64,000 bases of DNA. Origin: a virus. The DNA lies in the IMG/VR virus record IMGVR_UViG_3300033553_000165, positions 1-64,000 of that record; one strand, given 5' to 3'. The notes beneath the pieces are model-generated. The model saw nothing but the letters and a program-made list of their open reading frames with translations. It searched no databases and was not told the DNA's origin. The translations under genes and the position numbers were made by a program. Each line of letters starts with the position of its first letter. The first letter of the stretch is position 1. This document shows, one piece after another, positions 1 through 53,279 of the stretch.

Positions 1-5
1 GCATA

Positions 6-38
6 TCGTCGGCAGCGTCAGATGTGTATAAGAGACAG
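6..38 (+). other. Sequencing adapter (Nextera transposase read-1 adapter)
   Basis: The 33 bases match the Illumina Nextera read-1 oligonucleotide, ending in the 19-bp mosaic end AGATGTGTATAAGAGACAG. This is library sequence, not phage DNA. Genuine sequence starts at about base 39, and bases 1-5 are of unknown origin. The left edge is therefore an assembly end inside the adjoining reading frame. Confidence 0.97.
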
Positions 39-1603
39 ACTGTACTCCAAGTAGATATACTTTGATTAAACGAAGTAGCATTTTTGAATATACTACTAAA
101 AGAAGTTACCAGTGAAGTATTCCATCCACTTACTGAACTGTTAAAGCTAATCGCACCATCAAACATACTACTCATCTGCGTACAAGATGAAAGATTAAGG
201 GTGCTTAAAGGTTGATTGAACGCTTCTGCAGATTGTAAGAAAGAACCAAAGGTTATAACTAATGCAGTATTCCAATTCGACAGTGATTGATTAAATACTG
301 TACACCCTCTAAATGTATAAGCCATATCTGTAACCTTAGCGGTGTTAAAATGGCTTACTGATTGATTAAATGCAGGACATTGATAAAATGAGAAGCCTAA
401 GTTTGTTACATTAGTTGTTACCCAACTTGTTAATGGTTGATTAAATACAGCGCAAGTGCTAAAGATGCTGTTTAAATTGGTAGCAGAAGTAGTTACTAAT
501 CCCGAAACAGAACTATCAAAACTAGCACAGTCTTTAAACATAGATTGGTAATTTTGACCAGCCGTTGTAGTCCAATTAGATACTGGATAATTATATGCAG
601 CACAACTATCGAACATAAAACTATAGTTAGTAACATTAGAAGTGTTGCTTCCCCAAACGCTTAAATCCCTATTAAAAATAGTACAACCACTAAACATTGC
701 AGAAAGGTTAGTTGCACCGCTTACATTCCAAGTGCTTACATCAGCATTAAAATTAGCGCAGTTTCTAAAACATTCACTAAAAGTAGTAACACCACTTACA
801 TTCCAGTTTTCTAATCCCACTCCATCAAAAGAAGCGCAGTCTTTAAAATTAACAGTTGCTAAATTCGTGTTCCACTCGGATAATCTAGGTATACTAGAAA
901 AACCGCAGTTAATAAGAGATAGCCTAGTTATAGTCTGTTGTGGCAACCCATAATTATCAGGGAAAGTTAAATTTAAACCGTTAGTCATATACAACCGCTG
1001 AAGCGATGCCCCAAAGTTTAAAAACTCTGTGATCTTAAAGCAGTCTGTGGTAGGAAAAACAGTTTCATTAATATTTCCTTTAATTTTAACTATGTAAATA
1101 CCTGGCGCTGCATATTGATGCACTATACCTGACGATGATCCTGCTCCTGTTCCTACTGCTTCAGTAGTGCCATCACCCCAATCAATTGTACCATTTATAT
1201 TCGTAGATAGCGGAGCGGTTAAAAAAGGAGATGTATAGCTATCAACTCCACTATCATTTACTCCTCCATTTGTTTTTGTAGTATCGACTTTAAAAGCTAT
1301 AGCTTCTCCACCTTGCGCAATTCTAAAATACAAGTTCTTACCAGCTGTATTGTCTAATGGGGGATTCATTGCATTTAAGTAATCCGCTATACCTTGTTCA
1401 TCCGGAGAAGTTAAATCAAACTCAGGTAAGTCAATAAACATATTAACGTTAGGGTTACCACTTCCCTCTCCTGCAGGTATGGGTCCTTTTGTACCGTTAG
1501 TTCTCCAGTACTCAGCAGCACTACCGCCAGCAGGGTCTTGAACCCCTTCGGTGATAACTTTACCTTGTATTCTTATATCTGAAGTGAATTTCTTTTCAGC
1601 CAT
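39..1603 (-). CDS. BspA-like leucine-rich-repeat tail/adhesin protein with PKD-like domain (3' truncated)
   Basis: The frame is open from ATG at 1603 to the adapter, about 521 codons, with no stop; the C-terminus is missing. After a roughly 120-residue N-terminal part comes a PKD-like segment at about residues 125-180 (IDWGDGT, then HQYAAPGIYIVKIKG). From about residue 240 there are eleven tandem 25-residue repeats of the type S-x-W-N-T-S-x-V-T-x-x-x-x-M-F-x-x-C-x-x-F-N-Q. These are characteristic of the DUF285/BspA-like surface-protein LRR family. The start lies 4 bp past the stop of the upstream gene (1608), and it is the last of five consecutive fibre-type genes. A receptor-binding or host-surface adhesin role is inferred. 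Confidence 0.85.
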
Positions 1604-5461: not shown

Positions 5462-6832
5462 CTAGACTGTTTTTGGAGTCAAATAGATAATAGCTGGGTC
5501 TAGAGTCCCGGCAGTGTTCATTGCTTCCCATTCTGCGTACGGGAGATAAATTATTTTTGTTAAATTGTCGCTCTTTTGTAGAAGCTTAGCAAGTTCTACT
5601 GATAAGTTCGTAACTGTAGATATGGCCTGAACCCCAGTATGATTTGCTCTATCTCTTGAATCTATATCGGCTTGCTCCAACAACGTCATCTTCTGATCAT
5701 ATTCGGTCTTATTATTGGTTACCGTTTGATCTATGGTATTATTGAAGGTCGTTTGATTTGATAAGAAAGCATCGTGAGAAATACTTAACGCTAATAAATC
5801 ACTGTTTGTATTATTTATCTCTTCCCAAAGTTTTGCTATCTGCTCATTGTAATTCCCCTCTTCAGAATAATTATTAGAACCTAATAAGGGAGCCCAAGTT
5901 CCATTAAATAAAGCAGCATTTACAATTGATGCTTCCATATCTTGGGTTTTAATCCCTATAAACTTCCTAAATTCATAGCAATTTGTAGGGATGACGTAAG
6001 ATGGCTCGCACTGTGCACTTCCTACCTTTAATACGATTGACCCAGAAAATCCTGAAACACCATTAGTCGAAACCTTTAATCGTGCTACACTTCCGTTTAT
6101 CGTTTTTATAAAACTATCCGCTGTTCCGGCTTCATTATAGATAACGAAATTATCGGTGGAGTTGGCGTCGGTGTTCAGTTCTAAAATTCCTTCGGCAGAC
6201 CAAGCTGCATCTTTTATGATTTCAAAATATTGCTGAGAAAGGTTTGGAATTAATGTCGTTCCTCTTTTTAGCGTTATCTCTATAATGTTTCCATAAACTA
6301 AGTTTGTGAAATCAATTCTTACACCTTCCGTAACTGGAGTGAGTGCGAATGAACCTGTCGAGCTTTTTATTGTAAAACTATCTACCCAAGAACATACTTC
6401 ACAAGCGACTTCATATTTCGGTTCAACGCTAAAGTTTAAACCTGACTCATCGTCAGCAAAACCTACGTATGTGAAGTTTCCTCCACCGCTTCCAGATCCA
6501 TCAAAAGCTGTCCACCTTCCGGAAAATAAAGTTGAGGTCAAAGTTGTAATTGGAGTCGTTGAAGTAATTACCGCCCAATAAGTAGAAGTGACTTGTTTAG
6601 TGGTTGTAAAATTCGCTCCTTCTGTACTTGTAGCATATCCAATATAGGTATAAATACCATTTACCGTCGCACCGCTTCCTAAGGGAGTCCAAGCTGCCCC
6701 AATTACGCTATAATATTTATGTATTTTGATTCCAGGATTATCATCGAACCAAATAATCTTGGTATTCAACGGAGGATTTACTCCTACGTGAATTGCTTTT
6801 ATTAAGCCAAAGTTCTTGGTTTCTCTACTCAT
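5462..6832 (-). CDS. Putative tail fibre/baseplate protein
   Basis: 456 aa. Two related segments (TYIGYATSTEGANFTTTK near residue 41 and TYVGFADDESGLNFSVEPKY near residue 122) form an internal duplication. The region at about residues 320-420 is predicted helical or coiled coil (AKLWEEINNTNSDLLALSIS, TEYDQKMTLLEQADIDSRD), as in trimeric fibres. The start shares one base with the portal stop, so the two are translationally coupled. Fibre assignment comes from context and composition. Confidence 0.65.
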   Translation of the reverse strand: MSRETKNFGLIKAIHVGVNPPLNTKIIWFDDNPGIKIHKYYSVIGAAWTPLGSGATVNGIYTYIGYATSTEGANFTTTKQVTSTYWAVITSTTPITTLTSTLFSGRWTAFDGSGSGGGNFTYVGFADDESGLNFSVEPKYEVACEVCSWVDSFTIKSSTGSFALTPVTEGVRIDFTNLVYGNIIEITLKRGTTLIPNLSQQYFEIIKDAAWSAEGILELNTDANSTDNFVIYNEAGTADSFIKTINGSVARLKVSTNGVSGFSGSIVLKVGSAQCEPSYVIPTNCYEFRKFIGIKTQDMEASIVNAALFNGTWAPLLGSNNYSEEGNYNEQIAKLWEEINNTNSDLLALSISHDAFLSNQTTFNNTIDQTVTNNKTEYDQKMTLLEQADIDSRDRANHTGVQAISTVTNLSVELAKLLQKSDNLTKIIYLPYAEWEAMNTAGTLDPAIIYLTPKTV

Positions 6833-8460
6833 TACTTCTTAAGATTATTTTTAAACGCCTTCAGAAAGGGATTATCGTCCTCATCCATATTACCGTAATT
6901 CAAGAAAGGATTATCACCTCCTTCATTCCATTCCTCTTCTTCGTCGTCCATATTTACACCTTCAAGAAAAGGATTCGGTGCTTCGCCTTCCATTCCCATT
7001 CCTGCTTGAGCTTGTTGTTGCTCCATCATTTTCATTTGGGTGTAAGTAGGATTCAAAATTATATCTCCTCCGTCAACTGGCGGGAGATTGTACTTTTTAC
7101 GAATTTCATTTAGTGTTTGGAAGTTGGTAAGTTTTTTAATCTCCATTTCCAACTCTTCCTCAATCGTCATACCGTTCAACCCTACGAACTGAAGCTCATA
7201 ATCTGGATCAAGTTGGCTAACAATATGCTTGTTGAGTTTTCTCTGAATAAATTTCAGAAGAGGAAATAAACCTTTATCTTGAGAATGCTTTAATTTACTT
7301 TCATTATTACTTTCATAAGAAGTTTTAACTCCGGCACTCGCAAGGTTAAATCCTATCTCATTTGGATCAATTGAATAAACTGAACAAGAAAGTTTTATAA
7401 GATATTCGCTCCAAGAAGAGAACTCCATATCTCTATTATTCTTCTGTAAATCTATCCAGTCAATATCTGCATCTACAATCGGAGTCTTCCAAGATTGTTG
7501 AACCCCCGTTATCATAGATAACCATTCTTGTCTGAAGGCTGAAAGTTGCTTTTCGCTCACATTACCCTTAACCTTTAATAAACCTTTCGGTGCGGCTCCT
7601 TGGCTGAAGAATCTCTTATTATATTCATCTGCCCAAAGCATAGCTGTTACCGTGCTTATTAATTCTTCAAGTTCCGAAATTCCATATCCAGTGTTATGAA
7701 TACTGGTTGAGGGATTCCTAACTCCGAAGCAAAGTTCCCAAGGATAAAAGTCATTAACTACGTTTCCTTGATAAATTTGAACGTATGACGGATAGTAACC
7801 TTTTATCGCTTCCCGTTCCATCCCGTCATATTCATCATCGTCGTAAGAATCGGCAACCCTGAAAGTTGTAGCATCTGTAGCGAAAAACTCGAACGGTCTC
7901 CCGAACGAATCCCTTACTACTTCAAAAGTCAATTGATCAAAAGTTAAACTATCCTCCGTTATCTTTCTTATAAAGGTCTCAAAATCGTCATTCTCCCAGT
8001 TTTCATTGACTCCGCAATTAAGTATGAAGTTTTGAATCTCTTCGATTTTAGCCCAATCTTCCGGCTCGTCTTCTATCTGTCCTGGCTTCTTCTTTTTACG
8101 GATAATGAAGCCTGTCGAATATTTATCAGCTTGCGGTTCAGCGAAATCAGCTATTTGGTTTTTTCTGGTCTTGATAATAGCGTTGATAATTGGAGTCTTG
8201 GACATAGCCTTTAGCGTTGAATATGTTAACGCATATGGTTTGTCTTTGTATCCAAAACTACTATTAAATTCCAGTGGGTCTATTACAAAAGACTTCTTAT
8301 CACTATGTTGTCTTTCCTCAACCCCCTGTAGAACCTTTTGGGCTCTCATTATATCCGTTGGTGAAGAAGACTTCAACCCTTCGTCAGTCAGGAGAGCCTT
8401 CTTCACTTCTAGCTTTTGTTGTAGAATTTCTAACTTATCAAGCTTTTTACTAATCGACAT
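6832..8460 (-). CDS. Portal protein
   Basis: 542 aa. Recognised by the portal core: ALTYSTLKAMSKTPIINAII (two-thirds helical clip entry), IAD, a central wing with FEFFATDATTFRVAD, YPWELCFGVRNPSTS, GYGISELEELISTVTAMLWA, and the long crown helix with FSQGAAPKGLLKVKGNVSEK. This is typical of the HK97/SPP1-like portal families. The portal dodecamer is the DNA gateway and terminase docking site. The C-terminus is glutamine- and acid-rich. It follows the 590-aa acidic LNILKGF protein by 13 bp and is translationally coupled to fibre genes downstream. Confidence 0.88.
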   Translation of the reverse strand: MSISKKLDKLEILQQKLEVKKALLTDEGLKSSSPTDIMRAQKVLQGVEERQHSDKKSFVIDPLEFNSSFGYKDKPYALTYSTLKAMSKTPIINAIIKTRKNQIADFAEPQADKYSTGFIIRKKKKPGQIEDEPEDWAKIEEIQNFILNCGVNENWENDDFETFIRKITEDSLTFDQLTFEVVRDSFGRPFEFFATDATTFRVADSYDDDEYDGMEREAIKGYYPSYVQIYQGNVVNDFYPWELCFGVRNPSTSIHNTGYGISELEELISTVTAMLWADEYNKRFFSQGAAPKGLLKVKGNVSEKQLSAFRQEWLSMITGVQQSWKTPIVDADIDWIDLQKNNRDMEFSSWSEYLIKLSCSVYSIDPNEIGFNLASAGVKTSYESNNESKLKHSQDKGLFPLLKFIQRKLNKHIVSQLDPDYELQFVGLNGMTIEEELEMEIKKLTNFQTLNEIRKKYNLPPVDGGDIILNPTYTQMKMMEQQQAQAGMGMEGEAPNPFLEGVNMDDEEEEWNEGGDNPFLNYGNMDEDDNPFLKAFKNNLKK

Positions 8461-10894: not shown

Positions 10895-11899
10895 TTACAT
10901 TTTTTGTATTTCATCCGCTTTACTTTGAGGAACGAATTGGCTTCTCTGCTTCCCCTTACCGATTGTCATCTTCCAATACTTCTGAAATTCACATAACCAC
11001 ATTTCTACTTGATGTAAGGTAATTTTCCCGTCCTTTTTTACGGAATAGCTTTTAGTCTCCTTATCCCAATTTAAATATTTGAAATCACCGAACTGACCTA
11101 ACTGTTCTTGAGCTAAATCCCTCAACCAGTAAATGCCCACTGTCTGATCTTTACCGTTCTTCAAGTTAGGAAATATTAATCTTATACCTACAGACGCTCC
11201 TGGTCCTACGTTTGTAAAGTCATCCTGGTCAAAACGCATAAGATTCACTTCAGAATATTTCGGAGCATAAGTAAAATCTTGGTAAAATTCGTGAGCTATG
11301 AAATCAGCTACAGCCGGAAGCGTCTTGAGGAAAGTTATTATGACTTCCGGACTTTTCGCCTTAGCTAAAACTAATTGAAGCTTTCTTACTTTTTTATGTA
11401 AAGTTGGGATAACCTTATTAGCATAGCACCAATCTCTTTTCCTTCCTGGGCAAGCCATAGAATTTATTAAGTAGGCATTTGTGAAAGGATTCTCACCCGT
11501 TTCCCTATAATCTGCCATCTGTTGTTCTAATGTCGCTTGATCATATTCCTCATAACTCGGAACTCCTCCTATGAATTCAAAAAATTCCGGCTTGTTGAAA
11601 TATCTGAATAGCATAATTCTCCAAAGTAAATCTACATTACCATTTTTCTTTTCGTGCTTAAGAAATACGTTTTTGATTTGCCATTGACTGTGACGGTCTA
11701 ACTCACGGTAAACATTTGTGAATTTATTGTTACTAAAAAATGGGTCTTCTGTCCAAGGTCTTTCTTGACCTAATATAAACCGCTTATGCCAGATTTCTTG
11801 ACGCTCGAACATAGTTTTAAAGAATAATTCTAGATTCGGCTCATATACGTCTAATTCAGCGTCCGGAAGATCGCCTGTCCAGCTTGAGACATAACTCAT
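10895..11899 (-). CDS. 5-hmdU DNA kinase helical-domain (HMUDK / thymine-hypermodification) family protein
   Basis: 334 aa. Signature of the alpha-glutamyl/putrescinyl-thymine-pyrophosphorylase / HMUDK helical family: ERQEIWHKRFILGQERPWTE (residues 32-51), then KFTNVYRELDRHSQWQ (59-74), later FDQDDFTNVGPGASVGIR (223-240), a helix-hairpin-helix-like GPGA loop. In hmU-containing phages, members of this family take part in converting 5-hydroxymethyl-dU in DNA toward hypermodified thymines. No P-loop is visible, so this is the helical part only; a kinase partner would have to be elsewhere. It overlaps the glycosyltransferase gene by 4 bp (ATGA), implying joint function. Confidence 0.75.
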   Translation of the reverse strand: MSYVSSWTGDLPDAELDVYEPNLELFFKTMFERQEIWHKRFILGQERPWTEDPFFSNNKFTNVYRELDRHSQWQIKNVFLKHEKKNGNVDLLWRIMLFRYFNKPEFFEFIGGVPSYEEYDQATLEQQMADYRETGENPFTNAYLINSMACPGRKRDWCYANKVIPTLHKKVRKLQLVLAKAKSPEVIITFLKTLPAVADFIAHEFYQDFTYAPKYSEVNLMRFDQDDFTNVGPGASVGIRLIFPNLKNGKDQTVGIYWLRDLAQEQLGQFGDFKYLNWDKETKSYSVKKDGKITLHQVEMWLCEFQKYWKMTIGKGKQRSQFVPQSKADEIQKM

Positions 11900-12720
11900 A
11901 ATTTTATACTTTGAAATTCTTTGGTTCTTGCGATATCGGGTTCAAACGTCCAAGTCTTTTTAACAGGCTTCCATTTTAGATATGGATATTTCTCACTCAT
12001 TATTTCTTTAGTCTTAAGAACGGCTGCTCCTCTGTCGAAATCTTGTACTCCTCCCGCATTTTTGCCTACTGGTCTGTAATCAAGTCCAAGTTGTTCGTGG
12101 CGAACCGTATTGAATCCTGAATGCACTAAATGGAAGAAGGTATCAAAATCCTCAAAACCACTATTATCTAGATGTTCTGGATATGGAAATAAATGTTCGG
12201 TCTCTACAATGTAGGAACTTTGGAACCTTTTATTTAGCCTATCCCAAATTATGCTTAAATCTTCTTGACGCAATTCTTGACCGTAACAAAATGAGACACC
12301 TTTAATTTGGCTCCCCAATTCTTCTAGAATAATAAGGCTATCATCAATTGCTTTATCCAAAAAGGTTTGTGTCCGGAATTTTCTATCAACTTTATGTATT
12401 TCTTTCAACTCCGTAATATTCCGCACCCTTATATTATTGATATCATCATCCATCTTGAAAACATACTTATAATTGTTTTCTCTGGCGTATTCTTGAATAC
12501 ATAATTTCGCATAACATAGTCCTTCGTCGTTAGCGTCAATTATAACCAGCTCGTCATCCGTGAAGGATTTTGAGTAACTTTCATATTGTTGCGGCTCAAC
12601 GAATATTTTGTAAGGGAATTTTGAATGTTTGATGAATGAGTGAGTGTCCTTCTTTAAACCTTCCGCTCGACTTCGGCTTGGTATTGCGATTAAAATTTGA
12701 CCATTAGTAGAGTCTTCCAT
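11896..12720 (-). CDS. GT-A glycosyltransferase, TAGT-like (DNA base glycosylation?)
   Basis: 274 aa. An N-terminal Rossmann-like strand with ILIAIPSRSRAEGLKK (residues 9-24), IFVEP (39-43), GLCYAKLCIQEYA (67-79) and a DxD-type nucleotide-sugar/metal site YVFKMDDDI (86-94). The layout matches the TET/JBP-associated glycosyltransferases (TAGT), a family linked to modification of oxidised or hydroxymethylated bases in phage DNA. A downstream GGVQDFDRG may contribute acceptor or metal residues. Coupled by ATGA to the HMUDK-family gene. A general GT2-like glycosyltransferase acting on another substrate cannot be excluded. Confidence 0.7.
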   Translation of the reverse strand: MEDSTNGQILIAIPSRSRAEGLKKDTHSFIKHSKFPYKIFVEPQQYESYSKSFTDDELVIIDANDEGLCYAKLCIQEYARENNYKYVFKMDDDINNIRVRNITELKEIHKVDRKFRTQTFLDKAIDDSLIILEELGSQIKGVSFCYGQELRQEDLSIIWDRLNKRFQSSYIVETEHLFPYPEHLDNSGFEDFDTFFHLVHSGFNTVRHEQLGLDYRPVGKNAGGVQDFDRGAAVLKTKEIMSEKYPYLKWKPVKKTWTFEPDIARTKEFQSIKL

Positions 12721-12961
12721 TTTTAATTAGGCTTTTGAGTATATTAATATTTGAAACTTCTAAAACTATTTTCCCCGTCTTTTTGGTAATTGTTTCTTTA
12801 AATATGATATTCACGTACATCTCTCTGGAGGAAGAATACGACATATAAAATTCGTTTTCCCCTTCCAGAAGTGACTTAGCTAAACTTTTAAATTTTGGGT
12901 GGATTTTTCTTTGACGACTCGCTTCTTCCAATTGAAGCTTTATTTTCTTTCTCCAACTCAT
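12704..12961 (-). CDS. Hypothetical protein, 85 aa
   Basis: The N-terminus is basic (WRKKIKLQLEEASRQRKIHP); the remainder looks like a small alpha/beta protein. It overlaps the glycosyltransferase start by 17 bp and the next gene by 4 bp, so it is embedded in the hypermodification operon. No family recognised. Confidence 0.55.
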   Translation of the reverse strand: MSWRKKIKLQLEEASRQRKIHPKFKSLAKSLLEGENEFYMSYSSSREMYVNIIFKETITKKTGKIVLEVSNINILKSLIKNGRLY

Positions 12962-13221
12962 AAACTATCTAGATGTATTTCGGCCAAACTTTCAACTGCT
13001 TCAAATACCTTCGGCTTCAGATTTTTTATTTCTTCCATTATATCTTTTTCCCTTCTCATCATTATCCAAGCGTCAGACGCTCTAAGATTTTTCCAACAAT
13101 CATCAAATGATGTAAATGATAAAATGAGGTCGGTTGTCTTCTCCTTATGTTTTATATAGATATCGTTGGCTCCTAATTTTCTTAGAAATAAAAAACGGTC
13201 TATAATAGCTTGATTTCTCAT
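12958..13221 (-). CDS. Hypothetical protein, 87 aa
   Basis: Small mixed alpha/beta protein (DRFLFLRKLGANDIYIKHKE at residues 9-28). ATGA-type overlap with the downstream 85-aa gene. Not recognised; the operon position suggests co-expression with the base-modification genes. Confidence 0.55.
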   Translation of the reverse strand: MRNQAIIDRFLFLRKLGANDIYIKHKEKTTDLILSFTSFDDCWKNLRASDAWIMMRREKDIMEEIKNLKPKVFEAVESLAEIHLDSL

Positions 13222-13260
13222 ACTACTATAAACCGTGTAAGGTTTTAAGGTGAAAGGTCT

Positions 13261-13650
13261 TTAGAGACCGCTCTTCTTATTGATCTCGGTAAGTATTGCT
13301 GTTAATATTAGGAAGATTGAATGGTTGGTTAAATCAGGGAACCTTCCGCTTAATTTGTCGTATATTTCTGACGAAGCTTCTAATATGGCTTCCTCTCCGA
13401 AAAGGTCTTGAGGACCATAGGTATTCCAGAAGAATGATTTTACAAGAGATTCGTTATCCAAAATGAACCCGAACCCGTTGTTGATGGTTTCTATGGAAAA
13501 GTTCTTTTCTCCCAATCTGTCCATTTCTAAAATTACTCTATCGCCTTCCCATCTTTTAAAGATAGCTAACCTTCCGTCTAATTTAGACTGAAGCATTTTA
13601 GCAGTTAGAAGATTAACGTTGATTGCGGATAAGTTGTTTTGAGTTGCCAT
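13261..13650 (-). CDS. Hypothetical protein, 129 aa
   Basis: First gene after the strong promoter-like block at 13684-13731, with leader element ATCGTAAAAATTTT before the ATG. Mostly helical, no recognised domain. As promoter-proximal gene of the unit 13650 to about 10.9 kb it may be the first product of that transcript. Confidence 0.6.
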   Translation of the reverse strand: MATQNNLSAINVNLLTAKMLQSKLDGRLAIFKRWEGDRVILEMDRLGEKNFSIETINNGFGFILDNESLVKSFFWNTYGPQDLFGEEAILEASSEIYDKLSGRFPDLTNHSIFLILTAILTEINKKSGL

Positions 13651-15029: not shown

Positions 15030-16148
15030 CTACTTTTTTGTTTGTCTTACTTTATAACTGGCTTCCCCATAAAATTCGCTATCCTGATAACCACGGTCGT
15101 CGTAATTGTCGTCGTCTTGTTTTATAGTCTTAGCTGTGATCTCTTTACCGCTATATCGGTTGATAGGCTTTTTATCTACATATTCCAATCCAGCTGGTAA
15201 ACTTGGTAAGGAAGCACTCATAGCCTTCTTATCAGCGTCCCGAGGATATCCCCTTTTCCCATTTACCGCAACTTGTAGAAGATAGCTTCCATCTTTTTGC
15301 TTATCAGTTAATCGGAAGTCAACATCGAGACCTCCGGAACGATAGGATTTTTTCTCCAACTCATCATTCACCTTATCAACATCAATCTGGATAGGCTTCT
15401 TCATTGGCTTGATTGGTGGAGCTTTCTTTTCAGATAAATCCTCAACCTTATCCCAAAGGTCTTTACTTCCGTTCCAACGGTAATTTTCTTTTTTGAATCC
15501 CTCCAATTTTTTAGCTTGTTGAAATTCTGAAGATGATAAGCTTGATTGTTTTAATAATGGGCTTGTCTTAGCTGCCCCTCCCCTACTTGCTAATGCAGAT
15601 TTTGCCGAAGCAACTACTTTGTCTGGGGATTTCTTACCTCCGTCACGCTGACCGAGAACGTATTTTTTACCAGTGATCTCAACGTATTTCTTTTGAAGTT
15701 TGGATATCTTATTATCAGTGTGTCCCGAAACGTGACCAACTGTTTCAATTTGAGATTTCCTGTCCCATAGAACGGAACTTAGCTCATCTTCTAATTTTGT
15801 CTGCTCGGAACGAACCTTTTTAACTGCGTTCGCAATAACTTCTTTTTGGTTTTGGTTGGCGATGTCTTTCCTGTTTGCTTGAGCTCTTGGGGAATTACTT
15901 GCCCCACCCGTTCCGGAATCAGTTTTACCGCTTGCCGAAGCACCCCCAGTTTTATCGGAAGCTTTTGCCCCTCTCCAGTCAAACTTTCCTGGTGCGTATT
16001 CCTTCCACACCCATTTACCGTTCGGGTGCATTTCTCCTACTTTTCTATTCTTTGCTTTCATAAGTTCGTCTTCTACTTCGACAAAACCTTTGAGAATATT
16101 TAGCCTTTGATTAGCTTGGTGATTGAGAATATCGTCGTGCCAATTCAT
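15030..16148 (-). CDS. LNILKGF-module protein, 372 aa
   Basis: N-terminus MNWHDDILNHQANQRLNILK, then GFVEVEDELMKAK. A segment HPNGKWVWKEYAPGKFDWRG (about residues 42-61) resembles linker motifs in other phage head-associated proteins. The centre is low-complexity, basic and Ser/Gly/Ala-rich; the C-terminal region (about 255-340) looks folded (LDVDFRLTDKQKDGSYLLQV). No catalytic motif visible. Twin of the 139-aa gene next to it. Confidence 0.65.
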   Translation of the reverse strand: MNWHDDILNHQANQRLNILKGFVEVEDELMKAKNRKVGEMHPNGKWVWKEYAPGKFDWRGAKASDKTGGASASGKTDSGTGGASNSPRAQANRKDIANQNQKEVIANAVKKVRSEQTKLEDELSSVLWDRKSQIETVGHVSGHTDNKISKLQKKYVEITGKKYVLGQRDGGKKSPDKVVASAKSALASRGGAAKTSPLLKQSSLSSSEFQQAKKLEGFKKENYRWNGSKDLWDKVEDLSEKKAPPIKPMKKPIQIDVDKVNDELEKKSYRSGGLDVDFRLTDKQKDGSYLLQVAVNGKRGYPRDADKKAMSASLPSLPAGLEYVDKKPINRYSGKEITAKTIKQDDDNYDDRGYQDSEFYGEASYKVRQTKK

Positions 16149-18115: not shown

Positions 18116-19792
18116 TTAAAGAAACTTAAAGCTAAATCCAGTTGTTAACTTTTTAACTCCTACGGAATTTAACCATAGCGACATCGCTTGATCATCGTGT
18201 TCCCCAACCCCTTCTAAACCTTTCTCCGTCCAAGTCACCGACATCAATTCTGAAGCTAAGGAATCTGAGATATCAATACTTTGTTGGTTCCCTCTCGGAA
18301 TTTTGATCTTACCTCGTTCAAAGGTGATTGCTAAGCCAGGAAGACCAGCTTTCAGATCGTACTTATTAGTTCCAGTCGTATGACCCTGTACGGGCAAGTT
18401 ATATCGTTCTCCTTCTTGTACGAATATTTGCTGGAAGACGTTATTTTCTAATATCATAATATCAGGTCGGAAGGAATGATTGATCTGGCGCATAATCGCT
18501 AACTGTTCCGCAAACGTTTTACCTTTAAATCTAGTTATGTTCATCAACCACATTGTTTCATTTTCATCAATACCCGAAGTTATCATTACCGTGTAATCGG
18601 CTCCGACTGATGACGAAATACTAAAATCGATAGAAGTAACAACTTGGTCAAATTTACGTTGGTAAGCTTCTCTGGATTGGACGAAGGTGTAATTCTCCAT
18701 ACCAACGTATGCCCGTTTGATAATAGCTTCCGGAAATATAGTAGACTCATTCGTCACAGGTCTTACTAAGTTTTCTCTGGAGAAAATTAGGTTTCCTTGA
18801 GTCTCCCTTTTGTCTAATAGGTTTTGAAAATCCCAACGCTCTCTCCATAGTATTTTACCGTCCGGAAAGATAGCGGGATATTCCCGCACGTGCCAACCCT
18901 TTTTAGTTTTTAAATCCCCATATAAATCCGCAGCGTGAAAAGGTGTCCCCACTACAATCACTTGACCATTAGGGACAATCATATTCATAATTACAGCGTG
19001 GAAATAATCAATTGACTTTTTACGTTGAACGCTTGAATAAATAACGTTATCTTTCAGCCCATCATCTACCACTATGTATCCTGGGTGAGCCCCACGCACT
19101 GAAGACCCAAAACCTTTAGTTGTAATTCTTGCCCCATTTTTACCTACGATATCCGTCTTAGCCCAACCGTCTCCCTTTCCAGGAAATAGCTTTTCACGCA
19201 ACTCATCATTTTCCTCAATGGTACTTTTAACAATATCTAGAAGGTCAACTGCCTGTTCCTTGGAGAATGAAAATAGATACCCACGCTTAGATAAGGCTAA
19301 ATCCCGTCGTCCTCCAGGAACGAACTTTTTATATCGGTACATTTTCCAAACGAAATATGCGTTGCTCCAAAAATAGCTTTTACCGTGATCTCGGGCAGCG
19401 ATAACATTCGCCTTCAAATACCTCATAGCAACGTCACCCCATTCCAAGTGATGCCAGTTAATCTCAAATTGGGGCATTCTGGAAGTAATGAAATATGTAA
19501 GATTTTCAATACATAAGGTTTCCTCAACGCTATTGGTCAGATGGTCAAAATAACCTAATTTATGTTGAAGATCATTTCCTTTACCATATAAGGAACTCAG
19601 AATCTCTTCCATTAATACGCCATAAAGTTGCTCTATGTCCGCTTCCGTTCCTCCGAATAGTTCTCTCGTCCCCTTCTCGTCTAAGTTTTCTAGTATCTCG
19701 TCTAAAATGCGAAACGCCTCATCCATTTTGTTTATGGATAAGACGCTATCATATTTCCCAAGTATTTTTAAATCCTCTTGTTCTAAAATCAT
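18116..19792 (-). CDS. terL: Terminase large subunit
   Basis: 558 aa. ATPase: Walker A-like VIAARDHGKSYF (about residues 131-142), Walker B YIVVDDG (about 240), coupling motif VVGTPFHAADLYG. Nuclease: SIDFSISSSVGADYTVMITS (about 390-410), LENNVFQQIF (about 450), with a C-terminal EHDDQAMSLWL carrying late metal-binding acids. Packages DNA into the prohead with the portal as docking ring. Follows the 200-aa gene by 1 bp. The Walker A lacks the canonical GxGKS spacing, as is common in TerL. Confidence 0.92.
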   Translation of the reverse strand: MILEQEDLKILGKYDSVLSINKMDEAFRILDEILENLDEKGTRELFGGTEADIEQLYGVLMEEILSSLYGKGNDLQHKLGYFDHLTNSVEETLCIENLTYFITSRMPQFEINWHHLEWGDVAMRYLKANVIAARDHGKSYFWSNAYFVWKMYRYKKFVPGGRRDLALSKRGYLFSFSKEQAVDLLDIVKSTIEENDELREKLFPGKGDGWAKTDIVGKNGARITTKGFGSSVRGAHPGYIVVDDGLKDNVIYSSVQRKKSIDYFHAVIMNMIVPNGQVIVVGTPFHAADLYGDLKTKKGWHVREYPAIFPDGKILWRERWDFQNLLDKRETQGNLIFSRENLVRPVTNESTIFPEAIIKRAYVGMENYTFVQSREAYQRKFDQVVTSIDFSISSSVGADYTVMITSGIDENETMWLMNITRFKGKTFAEQLAIMRQINHSFRPDIMILENNVFQQIFVQEGERYNLPVQGHTTGTNKYDLKAGLPGLAITFERGKIKIPRGNQQSIDISDSLASELMSVTWTEKGLEGVGEHDDQAMSLWLNSVGVKKLTTGFSFKFL

Positions 19793-21903: not shown

Positions 21904-22338
21904 CTACTTATTTCCCGTGCTACCAAAACCGCCTTCACCTCTTTGGGTTGGATCAAGTTTACTGACTTCTACCCAATCGGCTCTTTCGTGCTTAGCTATT
22001 ACCAATTGGGCGATACGGTCTCCTGCTGAAATTACAACTCTTTCGTTTGAAAGGTTTACCAAGATAACTCCAATTTCTCCCCGATAGTCAGCGTCAATAG
22101 TTCCTGGGGAATTTAATACGGTAATTCCTTGTTTGGCTGCTAAACCGCTTCTGGGTCTAACTTGAGCCTCAACTCCCGTTGGTAACTGGATGAAAAGTCC
22201 TGTTGGGATAACCCTTCTTTCTAATGGTCCTAATTCTACTAAGTCTTTTAAAACCGCTCTCAGATCCATTCCGGCAGATTGCCAAGTTTCATACTTTGGT
22301 AAATCGTGACCCGATTTGTTGATAATTTTAATATCCAT
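21904..22338 (-). CDS. dut: dUTPase
   Basis: 144 aa, the normal length for a trimeric dUTPase. Motif 1 SAGMDLRA (about residues 21-28), motif 2 [12 protein letters not shown], motif 3 [17 protein letters not shown], motif 4 DRIAQLVI, motif 5 [10 protein letters not shown]. Hydrolyses dUTP to dUMP, keeping uracil out of DNA and supplying dUMP to the thymidylate-synthase-fold enzyme at 52092. In hmU phages the same step feeds dUMP hydroxymethylation. Confidence 0.95.
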
Positions 22339-47563: not shown

Positions 47564-47829
47564 CCTTCTATTACTTCAATTTTATTAGCCTTTAGTTGTT
47601 CATTAACCTCAATCATCCTCTCCAGATAATCCTTAGCTTTTATAAGGTCTATTTGATTATTCCCCTTACTACTTTCAGGTCGGATGAAACGGTCTAAATA
47701 TCGTTCTACGTGTCCCGCACAATAAGCGTCCCCGTGGGTTTTGCTTCTCCTATACATACGGGATATCATATCGTGTTCCTTTTCACCGTATTTAGAACGG
47801 TTGGAAGCTTCCAGTTCGTCTCTAGTCAT
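47560..47829 (-). CDS. DUF3310-like protein, 89 aa
   Basis: HGDAYCAGHVERYLDRFIRP, then QIDLIKAKDYLERMIEVNEQ resembles the DUF3310 pattern of small phage proteins sometimes called nucleotide kinases, though no P-loop is present. ATGA-type overlaps with both neighbours. Confidence 0.55.
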   Translation of the reverse strand: MTRDELEASNRSKYGEKEHDMISRMYRRSKTHGDAYCAGHVERYLDRFIRPESSKGNNQIDLIKAKDYLERMIEVNEQLKANKIEVIEG

Positions 47830-48451
47830 TGTATTTCCAATTTATAGTTTTTAAATCAAATAAAATATTCAGGTCTTTAGTCTCAAGAATAAATGAATTT
47901 TCTTGGTAATAATCTATACATTCATCAACGGCCAAGTTTAGGTTTTTGATACAATATTTATACTTAACCTTTAAGATCAAGTTCCCTAACTCCATCTCCT
48001 TTTTAATGTAGAACGCCATACTCATCCAGTCTGCGACTTTCACTAATAATTTTACATATTTATGCTTCATAGCGAAATTATCCCGAAATAAGGAATTTGA
48101 TTTCGTTTCAGATCCAAATAAGTTTTCTATGGAAACATCTACGAAACTATCAAGTTCTTGGCGAATTTTGATACCGTTGTGTTTGTTGTACTTAACGTTG
48201 TGGTTAATGTCACCTGTGAACATTTCGTCAAAGTCGTGAAAGGCAGCATAAGTCATAACCGCTAATTTCTGTTCACACGCTTCCTTTTCGAATATCTCCT
48301 CGGCAAGTATCCTTGAGAACCAAGTTACCAAGAAGCTGTGGTGAGCAACGGTTTCATCCTTTATTCGGTGCATACCGTTCCAACGGATCATATTATTTAG
48401 TTGATCAAAATTTTCATCAAATAGGATATTTTCAAATAAATTAACTTTCAT
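47822..48451 (-). CDS. HD-domain 5'-deoxynucleotidase (YfbR-like)
   Basis: 209 aa. H in IKDETVAHHSFLVTWFSRIL (about residues 30-49), HD pair in TYAAFHDFDEMFTGDINHNV (about 68-87), later D in VKLLVKVADWMSM. This is the HD layout of YfbR-type dNMP phosphatases. It could lower competing dTMP or salvage nucleosides; hmU phages are known to remove dTMP with phage phosphatases, so it may belong to the proposed base-replacement pathway (inference). Confidence 0.75.
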   Translation of the reverse strand: MKVNLFENILFDENFDQLNNMIRWNGMHRIKDETVAHHSFLVTWFSRILAEEIFEKEACEQKLAVMTYAAFHDFDEMFTGDINHNVKYNKHNGIKIRQELDSFVDVSIENLFGSETKSNSLFRDNFAMKHKYVKLLVKVADWMSMAFYIKKEMELGNLILKVKYKYCIKNLNLAVDECIDYYQENSFILETKDLNILFDLKTINWKYND

Positions 48452-48463
48452 AAGTTGTGGGGA

Positions 48464-51400
48464 TTATAATTCTATTACCTTAGTTCTAGAAGTAACTTTG
48501 AACATATTTTTACCTCTAAAATCGTCAAAGAAGGCTCCACCGTGAACGGCAAACATTCCTTTAGTTATATTGAGTTCCTTAAATTGTTTTCCATATTTCT
48601 TGGCTTCCTCTTTCCAGAGAACGGTTAATATGATCGCATTGTTAGATTCTATAGAGACTTTATGGTAAATGTCCCCATTTCTATCTACAGCGTCAAATAT
48701 AGCTAATACCCTTCCAGCTATCGTACAAGGCTCTCCATCATCATACCTTCCTCTCTTTCCTTTTTTAGTATCATTCCAACTTAAAAATGATTGTCCGTTC
48801 CAGTAACTACTTATAACACGCTTCACTTTGGTTTTCTTCATAAGAAGTTCCTTATAATCAATCTCACCAAACCCCGTGATGTCTCTTTGCTTATATGTCC
48901 AGAACCAGTTCTTATCATTATTTTCGTCAGTCTCTATTTCTTCTGGAATATCGGCTTTAATCAACTCATAATAAGTTTTTAAAACCTTATACCGCTTTCG
49001 GGATTGATTTCCTACTACGTCTCCCTCTGAGTCCTCAATAGCGTCAAACGCTCCTGCGACTATCAAGTTAGTCACAACCCTTTTATTTACCTTGCTCTTG
49101 GGAACCCTATTTAAAAATTCTTCCAATGAAAAGAACATCCCGCCATCTTCTCTAGCTCTAAGGATTTCCGCTACAGCTACCTCCCCTGCGTGCTTAATTT
49201 TGGTCAACGACCAGTATATGGTATTTTCCTCAGGATCAGAAGTAAAGTGCCTGTCAGACTTATTTATATCTGGGGGCATAACTTTTATCTTTTTCTTAGA
49301 ATTTAAGTTAATTGCCGTGATCTCTGAAAGTCTATTCGGAACCTCATTTTTCTCGTCCGAAAAGTTTAAAGAACCCGTCCAAAACTCCAACGGATATTTA
49401 ACTTTAAGATATTGACACCAGTACCCCATCAGGGTGTAGGCTGCGGAGTGAGAACGGTTAAATCCATAAGCAGAGAAAGCATAAAGTTTGTCCCATACTT
49501 TAATAGCTATTTCTTCCCCATCACCTTCGGCGAATAGGACTGAGTATCCTTGGATGAATTTTTCCTTGAATTTAGCTAATGATTTATCATCAAACTTTTT
49601 CATATAAGTTCTGACCTGATCGGCTTCGGCTAATGTTAATCCACCGACCACCATCGCTTGCATTACTTGTTCTTGAAATACATATAGACCGTGAGTATTT
49701 TTGGTTATCACGTCCATATATGGGTCAAACTTCGCTTTCTTCTCCTTATGCTTAATTTTAGCAAAATCATTATGCGCATCACTATCCATCGGTCCTGGTC
49801 TAAATAATGCGTTCATAGAAATTAGGTCTTCTATATTATCAGGTCTTACCTTTTTAGAATAGCTTTTAAGTCCGGAAGTACCAAATTGAAATACGTCTTC
49901 ATTCCAACCCTTCTGGAAGAACTTAAAAACGCTCCTACGATTTACCGGAATTTTGTTTAAATTGATCTTTTTACCTTGGTTAACTTTTATCAGCCTCAAA
50001 ACTTCTTTAAATTTATCCAGCTGTGCTATCCCCAGAATATCTTCCTTTAAGAACCCAGCACGATCTACATACTTCCCTTCCCATTCTGCTACTAAGTTCC
50101 CATCAATTTTCTTAACAGGCAACCAATCAAAAACCGTCATAGGGTTTCCGTCTTTATCTTCCTTTGGTACAATTAAAACCGCTGACGGATGTATAGAACC
50201 TGCCCTCGGTTGCCCCAAGACTCCTTTTATTACCTCACAGACTTCCGCATTCTTTTGTACGAAGCTTTTCAACTTCGGCTTAATCATAGCGTTATCAAAT
50301 ATCTCTTGCCAGTTTGCCTTTTGAGAATCCGGAATTTCTTTAGTTGCGAAATTTATATCCTGAAACTGTAAGCCCATTACCCTTCCAAAATCCTTAAGAG
50401 CCGACTTGACTTTCATCCTACTATAAGTTCCCACGGAACATACGCTTGAAACTCCGTATTTCTGTTCTATGTACCTTTTTACTTCCTGCCGCTTACTACC
50501 TTCAAAATCCACATCAATATCCGGAAGAGCATCAGCCGATTTGGCTCTTTCCCCAGATACTCTAGTTTTATTCATAAATCGCTCAAAAAGTAAATCATAC
50601 TCAATCGGGTCAATTTCCGTAACTCCTAATAAATAGGCTACCAAAGAACCCCCAGCGGAACCCCTTCCTGGTCCTACTAAGATATCATTTTTCTTAGACC
50701 AATCCACTATGTCCCAAAGTATCATAAAATAGTCAACAAACCCCGCACCTACAATAACGTCGTTTTCTTCCTGAATCCGCTCAACGTATTCATTTATAGT
50801 TTTTTCGTCTTCAAACTTATTAAGAACTTTTTCGGTGAACCCTTCCTCAATTTTTTGGTAATATAAACCTATCGTGTCTTCGTGTTCAAATTTAGGTAAT
50901 TTGTGATTTCCTACGTCTATTAGAAAATCGCAAGCTTCAGCAACCTCAACCGTATTGGTTAGGGATTCTATGAATATATCCAACTTATCTTCGTCTCCAA
51001 ATAAGGGGAGATTTTCATTAATGATCGTTTGTGAATCCTTGTAATATTGCTGTGATGAAACTGGTTGAGATTTTCGGCTGATATCGTTCAATAGTTTTTT
51101 AACACCGCTATTTACTTTCTCACTATAATAACAGTCTCCTATGTAAATAGGCTTTAAAACCTTATAGAATTTCTTCATATAAGTTTTTATGTTATTCAGA
51201 TTTTCCATATCAATGACTTCGTCTTCAAGTTCATTTAGGTCTATCTGGTAATAAAGGTTTTCTTTGCCGTAAATCTCTTGATAAATTTCTATCCTCTCAA
51301 GAAATAATTTACTCTTATTGATAATTCTATTGAAGTAGCTATCCCTCGGAATTACACAAATGATACCTTCGTTGTATTGGAGTAGAATTTCCTCTGGAAT

Positions 51401-52090
51401 GAAACCGTTGAAATTTACGTTCACTTCCGTGTTGATTCTTAATAAGTTTCTCCAACCCTTCTCATTCTTAGCATAAACTTTTATCTCAAAAATATTTTGA
51501 AAGTCGGCTTCCGGATCATAATCGTACGCAACCGAATAGGTCGCCCCCATAATTGACTTAACTTCGCTGCCGCATTCTAATTGAAAAGCCAGTGTTCCTG
51601 CTAAGGTGTCTTTGTCGCAAATTGCTAAAGACGGGTGCTTGAAATACTTAGCTTTCTTAACCCAATCTTTCGGCTCCCCAGATCCATTTAATAATTCGTA
51701 TCCAGTGTGTACTCCCAGATTTACGAAAGGAATCGGAACCTCGGGTTCATATTCCCCTAAACTTAGAAATTCGTTAAATTCGGGCAGATAAATCACGTCG
51801 TTGATTTGATCCTTTCCGGTTTTTGAAGTACTTGAATAATAGAACCTTGAACCCCATCTGAAAAGCAAGAATCTTACCTCATCTTCCTCTTCAACAAAAT
51901 CCTTTTCCTCATCGGTCATTTTGAAATAGTACTCCCCTTGATCTTTTGAGTCTTCGTTCGTTAATAGGATACCATTTTTAGGTTCAACAAAAAGAAGAGT
52001 CCCCAATTTAGGGACTCTTATACAATTTACTTCCTCAACGATTTCGCAATTAATATTGTGATCTTCTATCCAAGCCTTCAATTCTTCCAT
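48464..52090 (-). CDS. dnaE: DNA polymerase III alpha-like (C-family) replicative polymerase
   Basis: 1208 aa. An unusual N-terminal region of about 120 residues precedes a PHP domain (FVNLGVHTGYELLNGSG) in which the metal ligands are changed (CDKDT replaces TDHG). Polymerase core: GPGRGSAGGSLVAYLLGVTE (about 472), PDIDVDFEGSKR with catalytic aspartates (about 523-529), LFRPGPMDSDAHNDFAKIKH, YGFNRSHSAAYTLMGYWCQY, then HhH and OB-like C-terminus. Main replicase of the phage; proofreading probably comes from the separate DEDDh protein. Confidence 0.95.
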   Translation of the reverse strand: MEELKAWIEDHNINCEIVEEVNCIRVPKLGTLLFVEPKNGILLTNEDSKDQGEYYFKMTDEEKDFVEEEDEVRFLLFRWGSRFYYSSTSKTGKDQINDVIYLPEFNEFLSLGEYEPEVPIPFVNLGVHTGYELLNGSGEPKDWVKKAKYFKHPSLAICDKDTLAGTLAFQLECGSEVKSIMGATYSVAYDYDPEADFQNIFEIKVYAKNEKGWRNLLRINTEVNVNFNGFIPEEILLQYNEGIICVIPRDSYFNRIINKSKLFLERIEIYQEIYGKENLYYQIDLNELEDEVIDMENLNNIKTYMKKFYKVLKPIYIGDCYYSEKVNSGVKKLLNDISRKSQPVSSQQYYKDSQTIINENLPLFGDEDKLDIFIESLTNTVEVAEACDFLIDVGNHKLPKFEHEDTIGLYYQKIEEGFTEKVLNKFEDEKTINEYVERIQEENDVIVGAGFVDYFMILWDIVDWSKKNDILVGPGRGSAGGSLVAYLLGVTEIDPIEYDLLFERFMNKTRVSGERAKSADALPDIDVDFEGSKRQEVKRYIEQKYGVSSVCSVGTYSRMKVKSALKDFGRVMGLQFQDINFATKEIPDSQKANWQEIFDNAMIKPKLKSFVQKNAEVCEVIKGVLGQPRAGSIHPSAVLIVPKEDKDGNPMTVFDWLPVKKIDGNLVAEWEGKYVDRAGFLKEDILGIAQLDKFKEVLRLIKVNQGKKINLNKIPVNRRSVFKFFQKGWNEDVFQFGTSGLKSYSKKVRPDNIEDLISMNALFRPGPMDSDAHNDFAKIKHKEKKAKFDPYMDVITKNTHGLYVFQEQVMQAMVVGGLTLAEADQVRTYMKKFDDKSLAKFKEKFIQGYSVLFAEGDGEEIAIKVWDKLYAFSAYGFNRSHSAAYTLMGYWCQYLKVKYPLEFWTGSLNFSDEKNEVPNRLSEITAINLNSKKKIKVMPPDINKSDRHFTSDPEENTIYWSLTKIKHAGEVAVAEILRAREDGGMFFSLEEFLNRVPKSKVNKRVVTNLIVAGAFDAIEDSEGDVVGNQSRKRYKVLKTYYELIKADIPEEIETDENNDKNWFWTYKQRDITGFGEIDYKELLMKKTKVKRVISSYWNGQSFLSWNDTKKGKRGRYDDGEPCTIAGRVLAIFDAVDRNGDIYHKVSIESNNAIILTVLWKEEAKKYGKQFKELNITKGMFAVHGGAFFDDFRGKNMFKVTSRTKVIEL
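51988..52019 (-). promoter_or_regulatory. Terminator-like hairpin within the 5' coding region of dnaE
   Basis: Minus strand AAGAGTCCC, loop TAAATTG, GGGACTCTT, then CTTTTTG: nine perfect pairs followed by a T-run, at codons about 25-35 of dnaE. It may act as an attenuator, or be a coincidence of the codons for RVPKLGTLLF. Confidence 0.45.
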
Positions 52091-52091
52091 A

Positions 52092-53279
52092 TTATAACTT
52101 AGCTGATTGTATTAGTTTTTCCGCTATCACTTCGCCTACTTCGTTATCTAACTTTGAATAGAAAAAATTCTGCGCTAATGCTAAGATATCAAGTGGGGGA
52201 TATAATTCGGCAATATCAATAATCTGAAGAAGTTTCTCAAACTTTGCCTTTTCGCTTCTATCAGAAATAAATTTATAATCAATATACAAAAACAGTAATT
52301 CGTAAGTCAGGTACAAGAAGTTTGAAAACGCCTTTACGGATTCTTCTTGTTTTTCCGTTAACTCCGTTTTATTTCTACAAGCATCAATTACTAAGCTGAA
52401 CATTTTATCAATTTGCCTTAGCCTTAAATTAACATCTATAGAGTCAAAATTGAAATCCATCTTAAACGGAATAGCGTTATCATAAAGGTCTTCAAATTTA
52501 CCGTTCGTGATTTGAATATTATCATACATATTGAAGGTCGTTGGGTTGGAAGTGTAAACGTGTAAACTTTGAGAATTATGCGTTTGCGTTCCTAACTCTA
52601 CCCCTAATATTCTTGCCATAACTTCCGTCACAAAACTAAACTGGAAGACGTTAGTGGGTAAACCCCAATGTAAATCGTTGCTTCTGTTAGCTATCGTCGT
52701 GATCATTTTTCCGTCCCTTATTTTAAGCATAACAAAATCGTTACACGGGATATCTACAGAGTCCGTACCTAAATCAAGTTCGGCATTCCAAATCTGTAGG
52801 GCAACCCTTCTGGTTTCCGGATTTTCATCTAACATTTGTAAAGCTTTCTCAACTTGATCAAACCCATCAATGATCTGTTGTGATGCGTGACCGTTGTTTT
52901 CCGGAGAAGTGGAATTTATTTCATCATAACTACTTACCCCGTGTTTCCGCATTCTGAAACCGTATGGTGCGTGAAATACCTTCCCATCGTCTGAGAATGT
53001 TTTCATTTTCGTATTAAAGATTTCCAGAAATTCTACATCCTTTTCCCCTTTGAAAATCCAAAGTGCTTCAGCTAATAAAAAAAATATGTTTATATCCCTT
53101 TCATTATTCCCAACGCATCTAAAATATGGATTGGTTATCTTCAGCTTGAAATCTAAAATCTCTCTCGTGTCCCCATATCGGCTGGGAATGAAGTCCCCGT
53201 TCTCAATAATATATTTATTGACGAAGGGATAATCATATGAAAACCTTTCGGTCTTTAAAGATTCATTTACTATATTCAT
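52092..53279 (-). CDS. Thymidylate synthase-fold dUMP (hydroxy)methylase
   Basis: 395 aa. Catalytic Cys179 in DSVDIPCNDFVML, Arg199-Ser200-x-Asp202 in IANRSNDLHWG, Asn210 in GLPTNVFQFSF, and SLHVYTS nucleotide site. The Asn at 210 (Asp in dCMP hydroxymethylases) indicates dUMP as substrate. The product may be dTMP or hydroxymethyl-dUMP; sequence alone cannot decide. About 120 residues longer than standard ThyA, with changed neighbours around the folate site. Immediately upstream of dnaE (1-bp gap). Confidence 0.85.
   Translation of the reverse strand: MNIVNESLKTERFSYDYPFVNKYIIENGDFIPSRYGDTREILDFKLKITNPYFRCVGNNERDINIFFLLAEALWIFKGEKDVEFLEIFNTKMKTFSDDGKVFHAPYGFRMRKHGVSSYDEINSTSPENNGHASQQIIDGFDQVEKALQMLDENPETRRVALQIWNAELDLGTDSVDIPCNDFVMLKIRDGKMITTIANRSNDLHWGLPTNVFQFSFVTEVMARILGVELGTQTHNSQSLHVYTSNPTTFNMYDNIQITNGKFEDLYDNAIPFKMDFNFDSIDVNLRLRQIDKMFSLVIDACRNKTELTEKQEESVKAFSNFLYLTYELLFLYIDYKFISDRSEKAKFEKLLQIIDIAELYPPLDILALAQNFFYSKLDNEVGEVIAEKLIQSAKL

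Follow-up and report, generated by a model that had tools for sequence, protein, structure and literature searches.

We propose that the phage behind the 96,896-base linear viral record IMGVR_UViG_3300033553_000165 (G000 hereafter), an uncultured member of a clade of related phages, incorporates 5-hmdU into its DNA and subsequently glycosylates it, perhaps with de-N-acetylation of the sugar, and that its HMUDK_hel protein serves as a kinase-independent, base-engaging factor; we put the probability of this reading as a whole at about 0.5. The record is possibly incomplete, and its bases 1-64000 constitute the window analysed here, a stretch of 64,000 nucleotides. To our knowledge, no function has been tested for HMUDK_hel, which is named after the kinase often found with it. 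Since the clade keeps HMUDK_hel together with a hydroxymethylase-type enzyme, mostly without a recognisable kinase, this function becomes directly testable. If the glycosyltransferases do act on 5-hmdU, the product would be a new sugar-bearing, perhaps amino-sugar-bearing, thymine, of interest for the evasion of restriction and for enzyme tools that modify DNA.

Two ORFs on the minus strand, encoding proteins of 334 aa (10895..11899) and 274 aa (11896..12720), overlap by 4 bp, just as the original prediction had described them; the shared bases read ATGA on the coding strand, and the motifs that the prediction quoted are present in the translations (ERQEIWHKR, PWTEDP, FTNVYRELDR and GPGA in the former, IPSRSRAEG and MDDDI in the latter). 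HMM searches bear out both of its family assignments. The 334-aa protein matches the HMUDK_hel family PF18723 in Pfam with 180.9 bits (cut-off 25; E 4.4e-53) over profile positions 4-278 of 281; this is the only Pfam family that exceeds its cut-off in this protein, and PF18724, which was also looked for, does not do so. The 274-aa protein matches the TAGT family PF20691 with 54.7 bits (cut-off 27.5; E 1.7e-14). The best PHROGs matches of the two proteins are phrog_2396, to which no function is assigned (1.7e-49), and phrog_842 'beta-glucosyl-HMC-alpha-glucosyltransferase' (3.4e-12), respectively, and NCBIfam offers no name for either of them.

HMUDK_hel of G000 is a stand-alone protein that consists of the all-helical domain only and contains no P-loop. 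Its AlphaFold (AF2) model (pLDDT 89.4, pTM 0.86) has as its best viral structural match the 5-hmdU DNA kinase of SP10 (F8WQ30; E 6e-15), followed by helical-domain proteins from phiRSL1 and phiW-14 and then, ranking slightly lower, by amino acid:DNA transferases. Ranks 1-5 of the comparison with the PDB are taken by the PaMx11 gp46 glycinyltransferase and archaeal 8-oxoguanine glycosylase, at E-values of 0.26-0.85 that make these weak matches suggestive at most. Searches of the PDB with the sequence profiles of HMUDK_hel, the TAGT and the GT-B glycosyltransferase described below returned nothing usable. Among 22 diverse HMUDK_hel members, including that of G000, 22 positions are (nearly) invariant, and 10 of these are charged or strongly polar (R33, N62, R65, D68, R99, D208, E299, E304, K307 and Y308). 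As the invariant positions are kept in G000 too, the site is under constraint in this phage. In one relative (G006; L012 7149-8135), an in-frame stop close to the GPG motif splits HMUDK_hel in two, so that it is read as a pair of ORFs, which may reflect a sequencing error, decay or something else.

The 274-aa protein is a TAGT-family GT-A glycosyltransferase. The DDD motif (D92, D93), D191 and G224 are invariant in an alignment of 8 TAGTs, so that the GT-A metal/catalytic residues are in place. Its nearest named relative, at 27.5% identity, is a protein of Nonlabens phage P12024L, the gene of which adjoins those for a TET oxygenase and a methyltransferase. The TAGT family is defined by DNA-modification neighbourhoods, and the association with TET/JBP is the source of its name rather than a sequence criterion. 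A scan of viral contigs using the window's own TAGT alone returned no close relative, and the base composition of the gene does not support a recent transfer (GC z -0.7, GC3 z -0.9).

The two genes had been regarded as a two-gene cassette; however, the HMUDK_hel-TAGT pair is not conserved as a unit. We found 42 loci with close relatives of HMUDK_hel in the viral-contig scan, and in every sufficiently long one HMUDK_hel lies just upstream of the portal gene (6832..8460 in the window, minus strand; phrog_12, E 3.2e-56), which by synteny is its constant neighbour in the clade. The other flank of the HMUDK_hel module is formed by the gene for the terminase large subunit (18116..19792, minus strand; phrog_38, E 1.2e-52). 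HMUDK_hel is thus a core gene beside the portal gene, whereas the window's TAGT has no counterpart at the HMUDK_hel locus in the seven near-complete relatives and occurs at this spot only in G000. A gene for a conserved small protein of 85 aa without a Pfam match (12704..12961, minus strand) has homologues in G001, G002, G006 and G007, as well as in L008 and L039; it directly adjoins HMUDK_hel in L008, L012 and L039, while in G000 the TAGT gene stands between the two. Because the 85-aa gene and HMUDK_hel abut in these relatives, the simplest account is an insertion of the TAGT next to a long-standing core gene. The suggestion that the genes at 12704-13650 are further pathway members finds no support in family matches, there being no significant one for the ORF upstream of the 85-aa gene (12958-13221) or for that at 13261-13650 either, and the 85-aa gene, though kept next to HMUDK_hel in several relatives, shows no sign of an enzymatic role. 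No HMUDK_hel was detected in Bacteroides phage DAC19, which represents the group of the nearest named terminase.

The likely source of the hydroxymethyl group lies elsewhere in the window. At 52092..53279 (minus strand), a 395-aa dUMP-hydroxymethylase-type member of the thymidylate synthase (TS) superfamily is encoded (PF00303, E 2.2e-22), adjoining the gene for DNA polymerase III alpha (48464..52090, minus strand; PF07733, E 4.2e-69), and it possesses both the catalytic Cys (in PCN) and the conserved Asn (in TNVFQF) of the superfamily. The PCN, NRSND and [FY]SDDG motifs occur both in the TS-like proteins of the clade and in the dUMP-hydroxymethylase-type proteins that SPO1-like and YuA-like phages encode. 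True thymidylate synthases have an IWD motif, which the clade proteins lack, and a phylogenetic tree splits the clade proteins from them with 100/99 support, albeit on long branches. Both this gene and HMUDK_hel are present in all 8 near-complete genomes (G000 and the seven relatives), and in the cultured phages LysYB1, BILI, PaMx11 and SH-Ab 15599 the hydroxymethylase-type gene adjoins HMUDK_hel. The window further encodes a dUTPase, a supplier of dUMP (21904..22338, minus strand; PF00692, E 3.1e-31), and a YfbR-like HD 5'-deoxynucleotidase (47822..48451, minus strand; PF12917, E 4.2e-18), which is also found in 8/8 genomes, has analogues neighbouring the hydroxymethylase in MW2 and PaMx11, and probably serves to control the dTMP/dNMP pool. 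For phages M6, ViI and phiW-14, the current view is that 5-hmdU is incorporated and later modified via a phosphorylated intermediate (PMC6449724, PMC5977210). Since the hydroxymethylase-type core gene is accompanied in G000 by the dUTPase and the HD nucleotidase, 5-hmdU is likely to occur in the DNA of this phage as well, and judging from these gene sequences we consider its presence highly probable. On the other hand, TET/JBP (PF12851) is absent from G000 and its relatives, whereas the positive control P12024L matches (2.8e-29), and a search of the G000 record for a C5-cytosine methyltransferase found none. We therefore rejected TET/JBP plus C5-methyltransferase as the hydroxymethyl source, and the hydroxymethyl handle of the TAGT is most simply 5-hmdU. 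The original prediction of a hydroxymethyluracil-derived, possibly sugar-bearing base thus survives as a general idea, plausibly on better reasons than those first given, namely, the hydroxymethylase-type enzyme at 52092-53279, which had not been linked to it, and the recurrence of TAGTs in the clade.

Thymidine hypermodification of the YuA/M6/PaMx11 and ViI types combines a dUMP hydroxymethylase, a 5-hmdU DNA kinase, HMUDK_hel and an amino acid:DNA transferase. G000 resembles these systems in having a dUMP-hydroxymethylase-type enzyme, HMUDK_hel and an HD nucleotidase, with post-replicative decoration of 5-hmdU assumed, but it differs from them in harboring neither a PF18748 kinase nor a PF18724 transferase, in the location of HMUDK_hel beside the portal gene instead of in a kinase-hydroxymethylase operon, and in possessing glycosyltransferases and a PIG-L-like deacetylase. 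The TAGT with its DDD motif is reminiscent of the TET-TAGT cytosine hypermodification in P12024L; however, neither a TET/JBP oxygenase nor a C5-methyltransferase was found in G000, where the nucleotide pool would supply the hydroxymethyl group. A sugar on a hydroxymethylpyrimidine, the proposed end product, would be similar to base J, the glucosylated 5-hmU of kinetoplastids, and to glucosylated hmC in T4, although the G000 enzymes are different, the hydroxymethylase is a phage enzyme acting on the nucleotide pool, and a de-N-acetylation step may be involved. Lastly, the fused kinase of the SP10 type, despite providing the best structural match, has a P-loop kinase part that is missing in G000.

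The description of HMUDK_hel as a kinase-family protein fails not only for want of a P-loop: the 5-hmdU kinase family PF18748 is found in 0 of the 41 clade records, while all three control phages are positive. We also ran a local HMM of five known 5-hmdU kinases, unfiltered, against the ORFs of 16 clade genomes/contigs. It detected nothing in the ORFs of G000 (best score 4.2 bits), and weak P-loop relatives in only two members, G012 and G006, the E-values for the pair being 1e-8 and 1e-7. In G012, a diverged member, HMUDK_hel has directly upstream genes for an amino acid:DNA transferase (PF18724, E 6.4e-18), a glutamine amidotransferase and an FkbM methyltransferase, and this transferase has no homologue among the G000 ORFs. 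HMUDK_hel thus keeps its place as the decorating enzymes near it vary, suggesting that it acts on the modified base in a general capacity. Where HMUDK_hel occurs with a kinase in cultured phages, the two are fused (SBSphiC), adjacent (BILI, PaMx11 and LysYB1) or separate (phiMAM1). As a kinase probe, phrog_800 ('terminase small subunit') was rejected because it responds to any P-loop, with matches in all 14 control genomes. We likewise rejected as the missing kinase a 493-aa protein (record positions 88475-89956) with the P-loop GGAGVGKS, AAA-like features and no Pfam family match, since FDDxD and ILFLTNM-type motifs follow its P-loop, as in AAA ATPases. It is one of several repeated proteins, encoded at window positions 15030-16148 and record positions 86380-89956, that have a WTEYxPGKFDWR-like motif in common.

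PF20691 matches were found in 10 of the 41 clade records, and additionally in G008 and, on closer inspection, in G011. These TAGTs occur in five arrangements: beside HMUDK_hel (G000), as the gene after the terminase (G008, G014, G015, G019, G021 and G022), followed by a nucleotidyltransferase that is just over its cut-off (PF00483; G009), beside a radical SAM gene (G033), and as a PIG-L-TAGT fusion (G011, G025 and G041). G000 itself has a GT-B glycosyltransferase gene and a PIG-L-like deacetylase gene with a 4-bp overlap at record positions 89996-92070, outside the window, the deacetylase gene being at 91408-92070. The fusion has a head-morphogenesis gene on one side and an AAA-like gene on the other, and occupies the locus that elsewhere holds separate PIG-L and GT-B genes, and no GT-B homologue was found in the available sequence of G011, G025 and G041; hence, TAGT and GT-B look interchangeable as partners of PIG-L, and the fusion links the three functionally. 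Ten of 12 PIG-L-like proteins match PF02585, weakly and, in the scans examined, with scores below the curated cut-off (best E 1.1e-4); these proteins have the invariant zinc-site motifs QPHSDD and HPxH, and the best-ranking PDB match is Dbv21 (9.4e-5), a glycopeptide deacetylase. The structure model of the PIG-L-TAGT fusion was poor (pLDDT 61.7), and its PDB matches were disregarded. The same HMUDK_hel-portal-PIG-L-GT-B order is seen in a contig assigned by binning to a Sulfuricurvum genome (L139 1-12092), which is either a phage in a Sulfuricurvum host or a binning error.

In the mechanism that we favour, some or all of the thymine would very likely be replaced with 5-hydroxymethyluracil by the nucleotide-pool route, in which the dUTPase and the dUMP hydroxymethylase would act together with the HD nucleotidase, the latter holding dTMP low, and the hydroxyl of 5-hmdU would be decorated after replication. 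The TAGT (11896-12720) would most likely move a sugar onto 5-hmdU in DNA, and we consider its action on this base somewhat probable. The GT-B and PIG-L pair would be the standard sugar-adding and sugar-de-N-acetylating step of the clade and may use the same base; that PIG-L acts on a DNA-linked sugar is possible, though we are more doubtful here. HMUDK_hel, a DNA-glycosylase-like helical protein, would flip or present the modified base or pick sites for whichever decorating enzyme is resident, and its position next to the portal gene is consistent with a late role, just ahead of packaging. We advance this kinase-independent, base-engaging role tentatively, at slightly less than even odds. In a more specific form, the modification would place an N-acetylated sugar on 5-hmdU without a kinase, PIG-L would de-N-acetylate it to leave an amine-bearing sugar on thymine, and HMUDK_hel would be a late base-flipping factor common to glycosyltransferase and aminoacyl-transferase versions of the system, a scenario that we rate as rather unlikely.

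It is unlikely as well that the glycosyltransferases and PIG-L have virion proteins or the host surface as their substrate instead of DNA, leaving HMUDK_hel and the hydroxymethylase to yield only plain 5-hmdU or a separate modification. HMUDK_hel and GT-B/PIG-L have head genes around them, the latter pair being flanked by head-morphogenesis and AAA genes, so that the glycosyltransferases could decorate virion proteins, and TAGT-like sequences also match in a Bacteroides genome; however, the DNA-modification neighbourhoods that define the TAGT family, including that of the P12024L relative, argue for DNA as the target, as do the overlap of the TAGT with HMUDK_hel in G000 and the status of the hydroxymethylase as a clade core gene. 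We consider it quite unlikely that the classical route operates, with a 5-hmdU DNA kinase that is too diverged, host-borne or missing from the assembly, as it could be since the record is linear and possibly incomplete, HMUDK_hel being its partner domain and the TAGT an extra. HMUDK_hel does accompany a kinase in the cultured phages examined, and two clade members have kinase-like P-loop proteins, one of them together with an amino acid:DNA transferase, but nothing kinase-like was found in G000 or in six of the seven near-complete relatives, all of which have HMUDK_hel, and no PF18724-like transferase was found in G000 or those six.

The structural neighbours of HMUDK_hel, namely, amino acid:DNA transferases and the PaMx11 gp46 glycinyltransferase, together with its ten invariant polar residues, would be accounted for if HMUDK_hel belonged to the amino acid:DNA transferase superfamily and, as a transferase in its own right, attached a group directly to 5-hmdU. 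This is very improbable, given that the structural scores are weak, that phages with a separate transferase retain HMUDK_hel (PaMx11, with gp46 and gp50, and G012), and that the base should then bear a leaving group, yet no kinase is present.

Several other genes were observed in the clade and in the window. Radical SAM/SPASM enzymes, not found in G000, adjoin PIG-L or TAGT genes in relatives (L036 1947-2936, L108 371-1309 and L112 12038-13006) and possibly carry out further base or sugar modification. In G011 (L035 11374-12210), a D12-class adenine methyltransferase gene is located between HMUDK_hel and the portal gene (PF02086, E 3.6e-20). Genes that by eye resemble GIY-YIG homing endonucleases are found near the modification/packaging genes of relatives (L032 6716-7615, L041 6842-7468 and L139 9412-10116). 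At the start of the window (2-1603), a gene that extends past the window start encodes a 534-aa protein with three DUF285 stretches (E 3e-77), which is likely to be a surface or tail protein.
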